From positions 1 to 64,000 of IMG/VR virus record IMGVR_UViG_3300021181_000008: a DNA stretch of 64,000 nt; one strand, 5' to 3'. Within the stretch, counting starts at the first letter, position 1, and each line of letters begins with the position of its first letter. The stretch is from a virus. Both the position numbers and the translations under genes were made by a program. The notes below the pieces were generated by a model. The model ran no database searches and was not told the DNA's origin. It saw only the letters and a program-made list of their open reading frames with translations. Shown piece by piece: positions 1,463 through 12,929 of the stretch.

Positions 1463-1590
1463 CGAGGTTTCGGCGGCTCTGGTGAACTTCCCCGGACTTC
1501 TGGCTGGTACGCTGGGGAGTCATGCCAGGGGCGGTACTTATGCCCCTTCGGGTGCGACGCCCGACACGGAGGCCGCTCCTGGCAGCGCTT

Positions 1591-1667
1591 GGGCCTGACC
1601 GGTATCGATCGGGGTAAATCCGCTTGCGGACGCTCGTGAGACTAGGGTTCGACTCCCTACAGGTCCA
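1591..1667 (+). ncRNA. tmRNA-like tRNA domain without an mRNA-like domain
   Basis: The 5' arm GGGCCTG (1591-1597) pairs with CAGGTCC (1660-1666) in seven base pairs, including a G3-U70 wobble, and is followed by discriminator A73. G3-U70 is the alanine identity element shared by tRNA-Ala and tmRNA. Bases after the 5' arm (ACCGGTATCGATC) match the conserved tmRNA 5' signature (CGGTTTCGA type), not a tRNA D-arm starting with T8. The T-arm is canonical: TAGGG, loop TTCGACT, CCCTA (1643-1659). Between the halves lie only about 32 nt with a TCCG-CTTG-CGGA hairpin (1619-1630), no valid anticodon arm and no tag reading frame. CCA is not encoded. It lies in a gap between two genes. A decayed tmRNA is an alternative. 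Confidence 0.55.
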
Positions 1668-10299: not shown

Positions 10300-10507
10300 C
10301 AGGATCAAGCCCGAGGACTACATCCGCAGGGCCGTAACGTGCACTATGTGCGACACAACCGTGGATATGGTGGCGGAGCAGGGCAGCTTCCCGAACGTCT
10401 GCGAACCCTGCTCCGGCCAGCTCCACTCCGTCTTCTGGCAACTCTGGAGGGAAGCCAATGAAACTGACCGACTTGCTCAGCGCGACGCTCCTCAAGGAAA
10501 TGCTTGA
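10292..10507 (+). CDS. Zinc-finger protein, 71 aa
   Basis: TTG 10292 is the likely start, overlapping the methyltransferase end by eight bases. CTMC (about 17-20) and CEPC (about 37-40) form one zinc site. A tryptophan-containing helix follows (SVFWQLWREANETDR). The end overlaps the RNA ligase start by 50 bases. It probably is a small nucleic acid or protein binding module. Farther upstream starts read through the methyltransferase and are not credible. Confidence 0.6.
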   Translation: MGSRIKPEDYIRRAVTCTMCDTTVDMVAEQGSFPNVCEPCSGQLHSVFWQLWREANETDRLAQRDAPQGNA

Positions 10508-11585
10508 GCAGAAGTACGTCAAGGCGCAGAGCCACCCCGCGATCCCCGGCCTGACGATCTACAACTACACAGACCAGGCGATGTGGGACAAGGCGTGGAA
10601 CGACGTCACCACCCAGTGCCGGGGCCTGATCGTGGACAGCGACGGCCTGATCGTCGCGCGCCCGTGGGAGAAGTTCTTCAACTACGGCGAGTTCACGGGC
10701 GAGATCAACCCCGGCCGCGCCGCCGGCCCCGGTCAGCGGGTGCTCGACCTGAACTCGCTGGTGCACGTCACGGACAAGAAGGACGGCTCGCTCGGCATCC
10801 TGTACCCGACGCCGCAGGGCCACGCCATCGCCACCCGTGGCTCGTTCAAGTCGGAGCAGGCCGTGCGCGGCTCGTTCATCTGGTGGAAGCGGTACGCCGA
10901 GTTCCCCGTGCCCGATGGCTGGACGCTGATGTTCGAGATCGTGTATCCGGAGAACCGGATCGTGCTCGACTACGCGGGCCTCGACGACCTGATCCTGCTG
11001 GGCGCGCGGGAGATCGAGACGGGCGTGGTGGTTGGTCCCGACGACTTCCTCCTCATCCCGTGGCAAGGCCCGCGCACTGAGGTGTTCGAGGACCGGTCGC
11101 TCGCGCAGGCGCTATGCCGCCACCCGCGCCCGAACGCCGAGGGCGTTGTCGTGCGCTACGTGACCGGCCCCGACTCCGGCCTGATGGTGAAGATCAAGCA
11201 GGACGACTACGTGCTCATGCACCGGCTCATCACCGGCATGAACGCGCGGGTGGTCTGGGAGCGCCTGATGGCCAACGAGACGACCGCTGACATCTGCGCG
11301 GGCGTGCCCGAGGAGTTCTGGCCGTGGATCAACGAGGTCGGCTACGACCTGCTGGAGCAGCACGCCGAGATCTCCGGCCGGGCCTACCGCGAGTACAACT
11401 CCATCGTGGTCAACCTCGACCAGGGCTGGACCCGGAAGGACTTCGCGGCCAAGGCGGTAGAGTCCGACTGCAAGGCGCTGCTGTTCCTGCTGCTCGACGG
11501 CCGGGACATCGCAGAGCTGGTCTGGAAGCAAATCAAGCCATCGGGTGAGCGCTCGATGAAGTACATCTCGGAGGACGTGGCATGA
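10458..11585 (+). CDS. rnl1: RNA ligase, T4 Rnl1-like
   Basis: 375 residues, matching T4 Rnl1 (374). The nucleotidyl motif I is K107-K108-D109-G110 (TDKKDGSLG), with K107 as the adenylated lysine. The upstream block TQCRGLIVD and RPWEKFFNYGE is the Rnl1 hallmark. Later motifs are FEIVYPENRIV, EGVVVRY and MVKIKQDDYV, where motif V supplies two lysines. It seals RNA 5'-phosphate/3'-OH ends. With the kinase/phosphatase at 11976 it should repair tRNAs cut by host anticodon nucleases. Good start ATG 10458 (GGAGGGAAGCC before it). Confidence 0.92.
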   Translation: MKLTDLLSATLLKEMLEQKYVKAQSHPAIPGLTIYNYTDQAMWDKAWNDVTTQCRGLIVDSDGLIVARPWEKFFNYGEFTGEINPGRAAGPGQRVLDLNSLVHVTDKKDGSLGILYPTPQGHAIATRGSFKSEQAVRGSFIWWKRYAEFPVPDGWTLMFEIVYPENRIVLDYAGLDDLILLGAREIETGVVVGPDDFLLIPWQGPRTEVFEDRSLAQALCRHPRPNAEGVVVRYVTGPDSGLMVKIKQDDYVLMHRLITGMNARVVWERLMANETTADICAGVPEEFWPWINEVGYDLLEQHAEISGRAYREYNSIVVNLDQGWTRKDFAAKAVESDCKALLFLLLDGRDIAELVWKQIKPSGERSMKYISEDVA

Positions 11586-11788
11586 CTTACGGAGACGAGC
11601 CCAAGTACGCGACGCTGGAGGCGTTCAAGCACGCCAAGGACTCGGTGGGCGCGGTGCTCTACATCGACAACGACCAGATCGACGCCTACGACTCCGAGAC
11701 GGGCGAGGTGCTGCTTCTCCAGCTCCATCCCAGCGAGTTCATCCAGCAGGCGACCGAGCTGCTGGGGTTCTCCTACGAGCACGTGTGA
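11582..11788 (+). CDS. Hypothetical protein, 68 aa
   Basis: ATG 11582 overlaps the ligase stop (ATGA). Acidic product starting MTYGDEPKYATLEAFKHAKD; the middle (AVLYIDNDQIDAYDSETGEV) looks like a beta hairpin. It lies between the two RNA-repair enzymes. Not recognised; it could be an accessory of the repair pair or unrelated. Confidence 0.65.
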   Translation: MTYGDEPKYATLEAFKHAKDSVGAVLYIDNDQIDAYDSETGEVLLLQLHPSEFIQQATELLGFSYEHV

Positions 11789-11979
11789 TGGACGAGTTCC
11801 CCGAGGACGAAACCCGGCCGAGGATGGTGGGCGAGTGCACGGGGTGCCGGTGCCGGGGATCAGCGGAGCCGAAGAAGGTGCCGTTGGTCCTCGACCCGTT
11901 CACTCGGGAGATCTACGGCGAGGACGAGTACGTCTATCTGTGCGACGAGTGCTACCAGGAAAGGGCTGACGACATATGA
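11788..11979 (+). CDS. Zinc-ribbon protein, 63 aa
   Basis: ATG 11788 overlaps the preceding stop (TGATG). CTGCRC (about 15-20) and CDEC (about 54-57) make a zinc ribbon with a short strand region between (YGEDEYVYLCDEC). It overlaps the kinase start by four bases. Its position inside the RNA-repair operon hints at RNA binding. That is inference from position only. Confidence 0.65.
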   Translation: MDEFPEDETRPRMVGECTGCRCRGSAEPKKVPLVLDPFTREIYGEDEYVYLCDECYQERADDI

Positions 11980-12929
11980 CCGAGCTAGTGATCACGAGGG
12001 GCCTGCCGGCCTCCGGCAAAACGACGTTCGCCCGAATCTGGGTGGACCGGGACCGAGCGCACCGCGCCCGCGTCAACCGCGACGACCTGCGACGCATGGT
12101 GGACGACGGCGTGTTCGTCAAGGGCGAGACGGAGCAGCGGATCCAGGCGCTTCGCAACGCGGCCATCAAGAGCCTGCTCGACCGGGGCGTCAGCGTCGTG
12201 TGCGACGACACCAACCTGCCTAACCGCGTCGTGCGCGACCTGGTGACGCTGGCTGCGCGGGCCAAGGCCGAGTGGCGGATCGAGGACTTCACGACCGTCC
12301 AGCTCGACGTCTGCACGGCCCGCAACGCGGCTCGCACGGACAAGGACCCGGTGCCGCGCCATGTGATCGAGGACATGCACCTGCGGTACCTGCACGGCAA
12401 GGTACTGCCCCTGCCGTTCTACCCGTTCAGCGCCGAGGACCCGGCGGCGAGCCTGTATGAGCCCGACGCTTCCCTCCCCGACGCGTTCATCTGCGACATC
12501 GACGGCACCGTGGCGCTCAAGGGCGACCGTGGGCCGTTCGACGAGAGCCGCGTGCACGAGGACCGGCCCAACCCGCGCGTGATCGAGGTGGTGAACAACC
12601 ACATCAAGCTGGGCTACCAGCCGGTCTTCCTGTCCGGCCGCACCGAGGGGTGCTACAGCGAGACGCGCAAGTGGCTGGGCCAGTACCTGGAGTACGACTG
12701 GCCGGGCCACAGCAACGACTACGGCATCATCGAGAAGCCCTTCCGCCTGCTCATGCGACCGCTCGGCGACCACCGCAAGGACTCGATCGTCAAGCGCGAG
12801 CTGTTCGACAAGTACGTGCGCGCGGAGTACAACGTGCGCTTCGTGCTGGACGACCGCGACCAGGTGGTGAGGATGTGGCGCGAGGAGCTTGGCCTGACCT
12901 GCCTTCAGGTTGCGCCGGGCGACTTCTAG
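11976..12929 (+). CDS. pnkp: Polynucleotide 5'-kinase/3'-phosphatase, T4 Pnkp-like
   Basis: 317 residues (T4 enzyme 301). The kinase domain has the P-loop GLPASGKT at 9-16 and VNRDDLRRMV as in T4 Pnkp; the lid region contains CTARNAARTDKDPVPRHVI. The phosphatase domain carries the DxDGT motif D174-I175-D176-G177-T178, then LSGRTEG and FVLDDRDQVV. It phosphorylates 5'-OH and removes 2',3'-cyclic or 3'-phosphate ends, making substrates for the ligase at 10458. Start ATG 11976 overlaps the previous stop. Very secure. Confidence 0.93.
   Translation: MTELVITRGLPASGKTTFARIWVDRDRAHRARVNRDDLRRMVDDGVFVKGETEQRIQALRNAAIKSLLDRGVSVVCDDTNLPNRVVRDLVTLAARAKAEWRIEDFTTVQLDVCTARNAARTDKDPVPRHVIEDMHLRYLHGKVLPLPFYPFSAEDPAASLYEPDASLPDAFICDIDGTVALKGDRGPFDESRVHEDRPNPRVIEVVNNHIKLGYQPVFLSGRTEGCYSETRKWLGQYLEYDWPGHSNDYGIIEKPFRLLMRPLGDHRKDSIVKRELFDKYVRAEYNVRFVLDDRDQVVRMWREELGLTCLQVAPGDF

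Follow-up and report, generated by a model that had tools for sequence, protein, structure and literature searches.

A compact phage RNA, very probably a tmRNA reduced to its tRNA-like domain, and its relatives in many phages

Described tmRNAs without an mRNA-like domain

The closest described system is the tmRNA of mycobacteriophage DS6A, which is listed as "TLD only" (tRNA-like domain only) (Hudson et al. 2014, PMC4131195). According to the accounts given in two later papers, tmRNA is strongly inhibited by a similar TLD-only molecule, in both chargeable and unchargeable form, and titration of SmpB is perhaps the cause (Mao 2009, via PMC4131195 and PMC11915505). The 2025 tmRNA database contains two CDS-less tmRNAs of ~65 bp from plastids, and its phage tmRNA sequences total 79 (PMC11915505). 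In jakobid mitochondrial tmRNAs the tag region is missing (PMC3985003), and a continued role in dealing with incomplete mRNAs is proposed for the mitochondrial forms that have no tag frame (PMC11915505). Fragments of the TLD together with SmpB form a tRNA mimic (PMC3929946), and SmpB-bound TLD fragments are cited as supporting the in vitro formation of poly-alanine with no mRNA present (Shimizu and Ueda 2006, via PMC3929946). These reports from DS6A, jakobid mitochondria, and two plastids contradict the statement, made in a preliminary description of the present locus, that no known tmRNA is without an mRNA-like domain. No paper on a family of TLD-only phage RNAs was found in the literature searched, which lay largely outside the subscription journals. 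A TLD-only phage tmRNA is a kind already known, from one named phage, DS6A, and the family reported here is far larger than the reachable literature had shown; its breadth, its near-invariant alanine signal, and its capped H2 hairpin appear to be undescribed in the searchable papers.

The RNA studied here is encoded in the window, i.e., the entire 64,000-nt stretch of viral DNA that was analyzed (positions 1 to 64,000 of IMG/VR record IMGVR_UViG_3300021181_000008), which also contains phage terminase, portal, protease, and capsid genes. It resembles the DS6A molecule, as described, in being phage encoded and in having the TLD of tmRNA with the mRNA-like domain absent. For DS6A there is one phage example in the papers found, whereas the present RNA belongs to a family in which covariation was measured and whose members have an H2 cap and a nearly invariant alanine pair. 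With one-piece tmRNA (RF00023) it has in common the G3-U70/A73 acceptor, the deformed D-part, a GGAC-type junction, the T-arm, and a full-length model alignment, but it is without the mRNA-like domain, the pseudoknots, and most of H2. The CDS-less tmRNAs of jakobid mitochondria and Mallomonadaceae plastids likewise have no mRNA-like region; these, however, are organellar and the mitochondrial ones are usually permuted, whereas the present RNA is encoded by a phage and has the normal order. Unlike organellar tmRNAs, the phage TLD-only genes presumably must use the SmpB of the host. Engineered TLD fragments, such as the T. thermophilus construct in which 25 nt of the 5' end and 34 nt of the 3' end are joined by UUCG (PDB 2CZJ), have the same architecture but were designed, whereas the phage RNAs are natural and selected. 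The sequence TTCG occurs in the hairpin region of 9 of 145 natural sequences among the matches listed, e.g., in L016 of the short class. Phage tRNAs are sometimes clustered with elements of the window type, but the latter are without a D-stem or anticodon loop and receive no call from ARAGORN.

Fold and detection of the 77-nt RNA

The 77-nt RNA at positions 1591 to 1667 of the plus strand folds as a complete TLD and reads GGGCCTG-ACC-GGTATCGA-hairpin-GAC-TAGGGTTCGACTCCCTA-CAGGTCC-A (Table 1). The preliminary description had placed it correctly to the base and had interpreted it as the tRNA-like half of a tmRNA with no tag frame, which is supported by the covariance models, the compensatory changes, and the conservation in relatives presented below. 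The acceptor with alanine signals, the tmRNA-type 5' signature, and the perfect T-arm that it had named were all recovered, the alanine identity signals being the pair G1593-U1664 (G3-U70) and A1667 (A73).

Table 1. Positions of the parts of the compact RNA and of its putative leader in the window
Feature	Positions	Strand	Remarks
Candidate -10 box TACGCT	1508..1513	+	TACGMT in window, L381, and L080; weak
Probable leader hairpin GCCAGGGGCGG...CCGCTCCTGGC	1523..1584	+	Strong inverted repeat just 5' of the element; folds
Acceptor stem, 5' strand GGGCCTG	1591..1597	+	7/7 pairs with 1660-1666; G1593 = G3
Linker and tmRNA-type D-part ACC-GGTATCGA	1598..1608	+	No D-stem; GGTATCGA = 1601-1608
H2-like hairpin, in place of the whole mRNA-like domain	1609..1639	+	Covariance-model alignment
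Junction GAC, 5' of the T-arm	1640..1642	+	tmRNA consensus GGAC
T-arm TAGGG-TTCGACT-CCCTA	1643..1659	+	5/5 pairs; loop TTCGACT
Acceptor stem, 3' strand CAGGTCC, and discriminator A73 (A1667)	1660..1667	+	U1664 = U70

In the RF00023 alignment the D-part was aligned to the Rfam tmRNA 5' end GAucuGGaUUCGA, and in relatives it was found as GGTTTCGA, GGATTCGA, or GGTATCGA. Among the matches listed, 83 of the 145 distinct relatives have GGAC at the junction and 17 have AGAC. The distance from the D-part to the T-arm is 34 nt, consistent with the short join originally noted. The hairpin in this join had been called tiny, but its outer stem (1609-1615/1632-1639) has ~7 bp with a bulged G1636 and an internal loop above, and is followed by the cap CCG-CTTG-CGG (1620-1629), consisting of 3 bp and a tetraloop. 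CCA is not encoded, as A-C-T-T comes next. By sequence, Rfam alignment, and ARAGORN, the element has neither pseudoknots nor an mRNA-like domain containing a resume codon, a tag frame, and a stop. It also differs from a tRNA in having no D-stem and no 7-nt anticodon loop, the tetraloop cap being present instead, and from a permuted two-piece tmRNA in its normal order and single closed acceptor stem. Judged from sequence and fold, the element is almost certainly a real TLD-only tmRNA.

This assignment was compared with the output of covariance models and of standard annotation. Model R1 was built from 20 relatives, a cleaner subset of 60 MAFFT-aligned sequences, with the window left out. In a search of the 64 kb it gave the element 68.2 bits (E = 2e-15), and the runner-up was a genuine tRNA at 16.5 bits. 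The Rfam tmRNA model RF00023, used with permissive settings, aligned end to end (model positions 1 to 374; 33.0 bits; E = 2.3e-12), 324 model positions shrinking to 31 nt. Over the whole record the same model gave 41.5 bits (E = 1.1e-16) for the element and no tmRNA-like match other than that at 1591 to 1667. Both scores miss the gathering cutoff of 47 bits, which several relatives clear with 51 to 74 bits. ARAGORN reported no tmRNA in the window, only three tRNAs at 60.8 to 61.0 kb, and Rfam at gathering thresholds reported only those three tRNAs. It is the RF00023 score below the cutoff that causes default Rfam and ARAGORN to overlook the element.

Relatives, covariation, and genomic setting

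Relatives were sought with three pattern scans in which the D-part and T-arm were the only fixed parts, and the acceptors were examined afterwards by script. With the acceptor thus left free, at least 148 distinct elements with a 7/7-paired acceptor were obtained; among the matches listed, G3-U70 was present in 145 and A73 in 146 of the 148. The 145 elements represent at least 42 different acceptor stems, at least 33 T-stems, and at least 187 contigs, and the three without G3-U70 look like chance or mis-framed matches. One first-pattern match (L006), with an acceptor lacking G3-U70 and with unclear pairing, was set aside. A long class of 73 to 86 nt (mostly 77 to 80) and a short class of 60 to 71 nt were distinguished. 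Two compact elements were observed on a single viral contig (L062, 5-81 and 1317-1392), and a tRNA was found within 1 kb in 30 of 187 contigs (on the same strand in 29) among the matches listed. The pattern GGGCCNG...CNGGTCCA, applied with spacing to viral contigs, gave no match because the acceptors are too variable.

In a 20-sequence alignment, two-sided changes were observed at 16 of 23 pairs and G3-U70 in all 20 sequences. For 98 distinct sequences (alignment A4, which was model fitted, includes a few tRNAs, and consists mostly of loci initially picked with G3-U70 required), standard pairs filled 96.7% of cells compared to 65.2% when shuffled, and the covariation score was 0.707 (shuffled, 0.143; slid controls, no more than 0.12). 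The covarying pairs in these 98 sequences were distributed over the acceptor (4/7), helix 2 (8/8), helix 3 (3/3), and the T-stem (4/5). A fairer measure than A4 is the pattern census with free acceptor (145/148 among the matches listed).

The preliminary description had suggested looking for the same compact element, and for covarying stems, in related phages. Both were found, the element being 76/77 identical (99%) in L381, whose terminase is 95% identical, and 71/77 identical (92%) in L080, where the 100-nt flanks are 49 to 56% identical and the gene directly 3' of the element is a different one. Two more distant relatives reached via a DUF4406 gene (L158 and L159) do not have the element, from which it follows that it was gained or lost. 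These comparisons indicate that the window element is maintained by selection and that the compact RNA is a member of a large, almost unnoticed family in many unrelated phages.

In the window the element ends 14 nt upstream of the first ATG of a DUF3310 gene (start 1682 or 1694). The stem base of the hairpin that precedes it is kept in L381 and L080 while the inside is altered, and this hairpin is possibly a leader or processing signal. Neither a terminator nor a sigma-70-like promoter was detected, and the candidate -10 box had no match in the sigma-70 scan. A small peptide encoded across the element from an ATG at 1522 was rejected, as it is not conserved in L080. Further upstream, an intergenic lower-GC stretch at 445 to 731 contains seven copies of the near-palindromic 19-mer ACTGTGTATGTACTACACA, which look like iterons or binding sites; similar sequence is present in L080 at 213 to 288. 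An array of CCACCATCCACCATTC-type repeats (852 to 961) directly precedes the first coding region, and a small Cys-rich open reading frame of 102 amino acids with a TTG start and CxxC motifs (1154 to 1462) is conserved in L080 (913 to 1185) and has no Pfam match. Adjacent genes for a T4 Rnl1-type RNA ligase and a polynucleotide kinase-phosphatase, an RNA repair pair used against anticodon nucleases, were located at 10458 to 12929; in the Streptomyces phage carriers, too, RNA ligase adjoins the tRNA cluster.

Among cultured phages, the element lies within tRNA clusters in the Streptomyces phages GiJojo, LuckySocke, pSt2308, and BRock, where it is unannotated in the last three and lies beneath a hypothetical protein in GiJojo. 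Streptomyces phage Riptide has a TLD-only RNA plus an annotated full tmRNA with the tag ANSKFAFALAA, and the acceptor stems of the two (loci L141 2976-3052 and L389 263-529) differ. In Pontimonas phage phiPsal1 the element is upstream of the major capsid gene. Microbacterium phages of the Dismas and Armstrong groups (L002, L003, and L385 to L388) have a variant of 88 to 90 nt beside tRNA genes, with a different, two-part covarying hairpin, a changed D-part (GGTTCGCC, GGAATGCC), and the same G3-U70. It is possibly a separate subfamily, and its assignment is less sure since R1 gives it only 26 to 31 bits. The matches in Cyanophage, Vibrio, Gordonia, and Pseudomonas isolates are uncertain, at only 19 to 34 bits. 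In Gordonia phage Yeezy (L376, 944-1032), a weak tmRNA-like 3' end adjoins a tyrosine integrase; this piece is probably an attP in ssrA, in contrast to the complete elements.

The element is regarded as phage specific and host dependent, and bacterial sequences yielded few examples. When R1 was applied to 296 Actinomycetota genomes, only the seeded Cellulosimicrobium genome matched (0 of 295 others), and with a stricter pattern nine matches were obtained from ~85,000 genomes of bacteria and archaea, four of them true compact elements (L130, L131, L134, and L135). The matches L133 and L127 were rejected as they overlap permuted tmRNAs, and L128, L129, and L132, which score like permuted tmRNAs (30 to 36 bits), were excluded from the count. 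A full-length match was not found in plasmids. In Cellulosimicrobium cellulans MP1 (G004) the compact element (C17:128568-128646) is ~29 kb from the host ssrA (157140-157506) and smpB (158171-158599), and it perhaps sits in a prophage integrated near ssrA. SmpB was absent from all 17 virus records tested and present in 4 of 4 bacterial hosts searched.

Predicted action on host trans-translation

The best explanation overall, which we consider reasonably probable, is that the phage TLD-only tmRNA competes with host tmRNA. The phage RNA probably borrows the SmpB and alanine of the host and interferes with the clearance of jammed ribosomes; that this interference is its main mode of action is favored only slightly. 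The RNA would have a short transcription unit of its own, and the transcript would be trimmed and given its CCA. It would then be charged with alanine by host AlaRS and be bound by host SmpB and EF-Tu, after which it would either reach the A site of non-stop (stalled) ribosomes or do no more than occupy SmpB. As it has neither a resume codon nor a tag, it could not finish trans-translation and so would compete with host tmRNA, the net effect being that tagging is dampened during infection. Competition is the most economical outcome. The preliminary description had offered as functions an alanyl-accepting RNA that enters stalled ribosomes and an SmpB or AlaRS decoy, and published work on similar molecules points to inhibition of tmRNA. 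In favor of this explanation, besides the model matches, the covariation, the retained G3-U70, and the conservation in relatives, are the lack of SmpB in the 17 virus records, its presence in the four hosts, the reported inhibition of tmRNA by a TLD-only molecule, and the SmpB binding and poly-alanine synthesis cited for TLD fragments. Against it, the window copy scores below the Rfam gathering cutoff and L158 and L159 are without the element; a TLD-only RNA whose sole action is to block trans-translation would also be odd in Riptide, which has a full tmRNA as well. Furthermore, titration of SmpB needs no charging and the alanine pair is near-invariant, so a simple decoy may not be the whole story. 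The same pair and the Riptide co-existence keep alive the reading in which charged RNA acts on the ribosome.

One form of that reading, rather unlikely in our estimate, is rescue without a tag. The charged RNA would enter non-stop ribosomes with host SmpB and accept the nascent chain, perhaps in repeated rounds that add alanines without a template, and drop-off and peptidyl-tRNA hydrolase would release the chain; ribosomes would be freed and phage proteins would not be tagged for proteolysis. The near-invariant G3-U70 and A73 suggest that charging is important, and the mRNA-free poly-alanine synthesis and the role proposed for tag-less mitochondrial tmRNAs, both cited above, agree with this. 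The lack of a resume or stop codon means, however, that an extra step is needed for release, and inhibition of tmRNA, as relayed in PMC4131195 and PMC11915505, is the one in vivo effect of a TLD-only RNA that was found in the literature. It is likewise conceivable, at a level we regard as low, that the alanylated, SmpB-bound RNA of this family is a template-free alanine donor on stalled ribosomes, accepting or lengthening the nascent chain with no tag and so rewiring rescue for the phage beyond mere titration of SmpB. This would explain the near-invariant G3-U70, as charging is reportedly unneeded for inhibition.

Improbable, too, is a pure SmpB (or AlaRS) sponge, for which ribosome entry is never needed and charging is incidental: a similar molecule, according to the account in PMC4131195, inhibits tmRNA charged or not, but G3-U70 is kept over at least 42 acceptor stems and would be unneeded unless AlaRS itself is the target. 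The short distance to the DUF3310 gene could suggest a structured cis element in its leader, e.g., a tRNA-like processing or regulatory site with no free RNA; this is very doubtful, since the neighbors differ elsewhere (another gene in L080, tRNA clusters, a capsid gene) and the acceptor end with A73 is typical of a charged RNA. An attachment-site remnant or a decaying former tmRNA, both raised in the preliminary description, can practically be dismissed: tmRNA 3' ends are common att sites and Yeezy has such a piece by its integrase, but here both halves are complete and covarying, the element is better conserved than its flanks, and no match to tyrosine integrase (PF00589) or serine recombinase (PF00239) was found in the window's record (G000).

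The function is directly testable because several cultured carriers exist, including LuckySocke (Streptomyces lividans) and Dismas-type phages (Microbacterium foliorum). The natural phage RNAs also match the fragments that structural biologists made for SmpB-TLD crystals. Trans-translation is near-universal in bacteria and is a drug target. Should a minimal tmRNA that escapes standard annotation prove to be present in many phages, manipulation of host ribosome rescue would be a common phage strategy, and the TLD-only RNA would be more than a curiosity of one mycobacteriophage.
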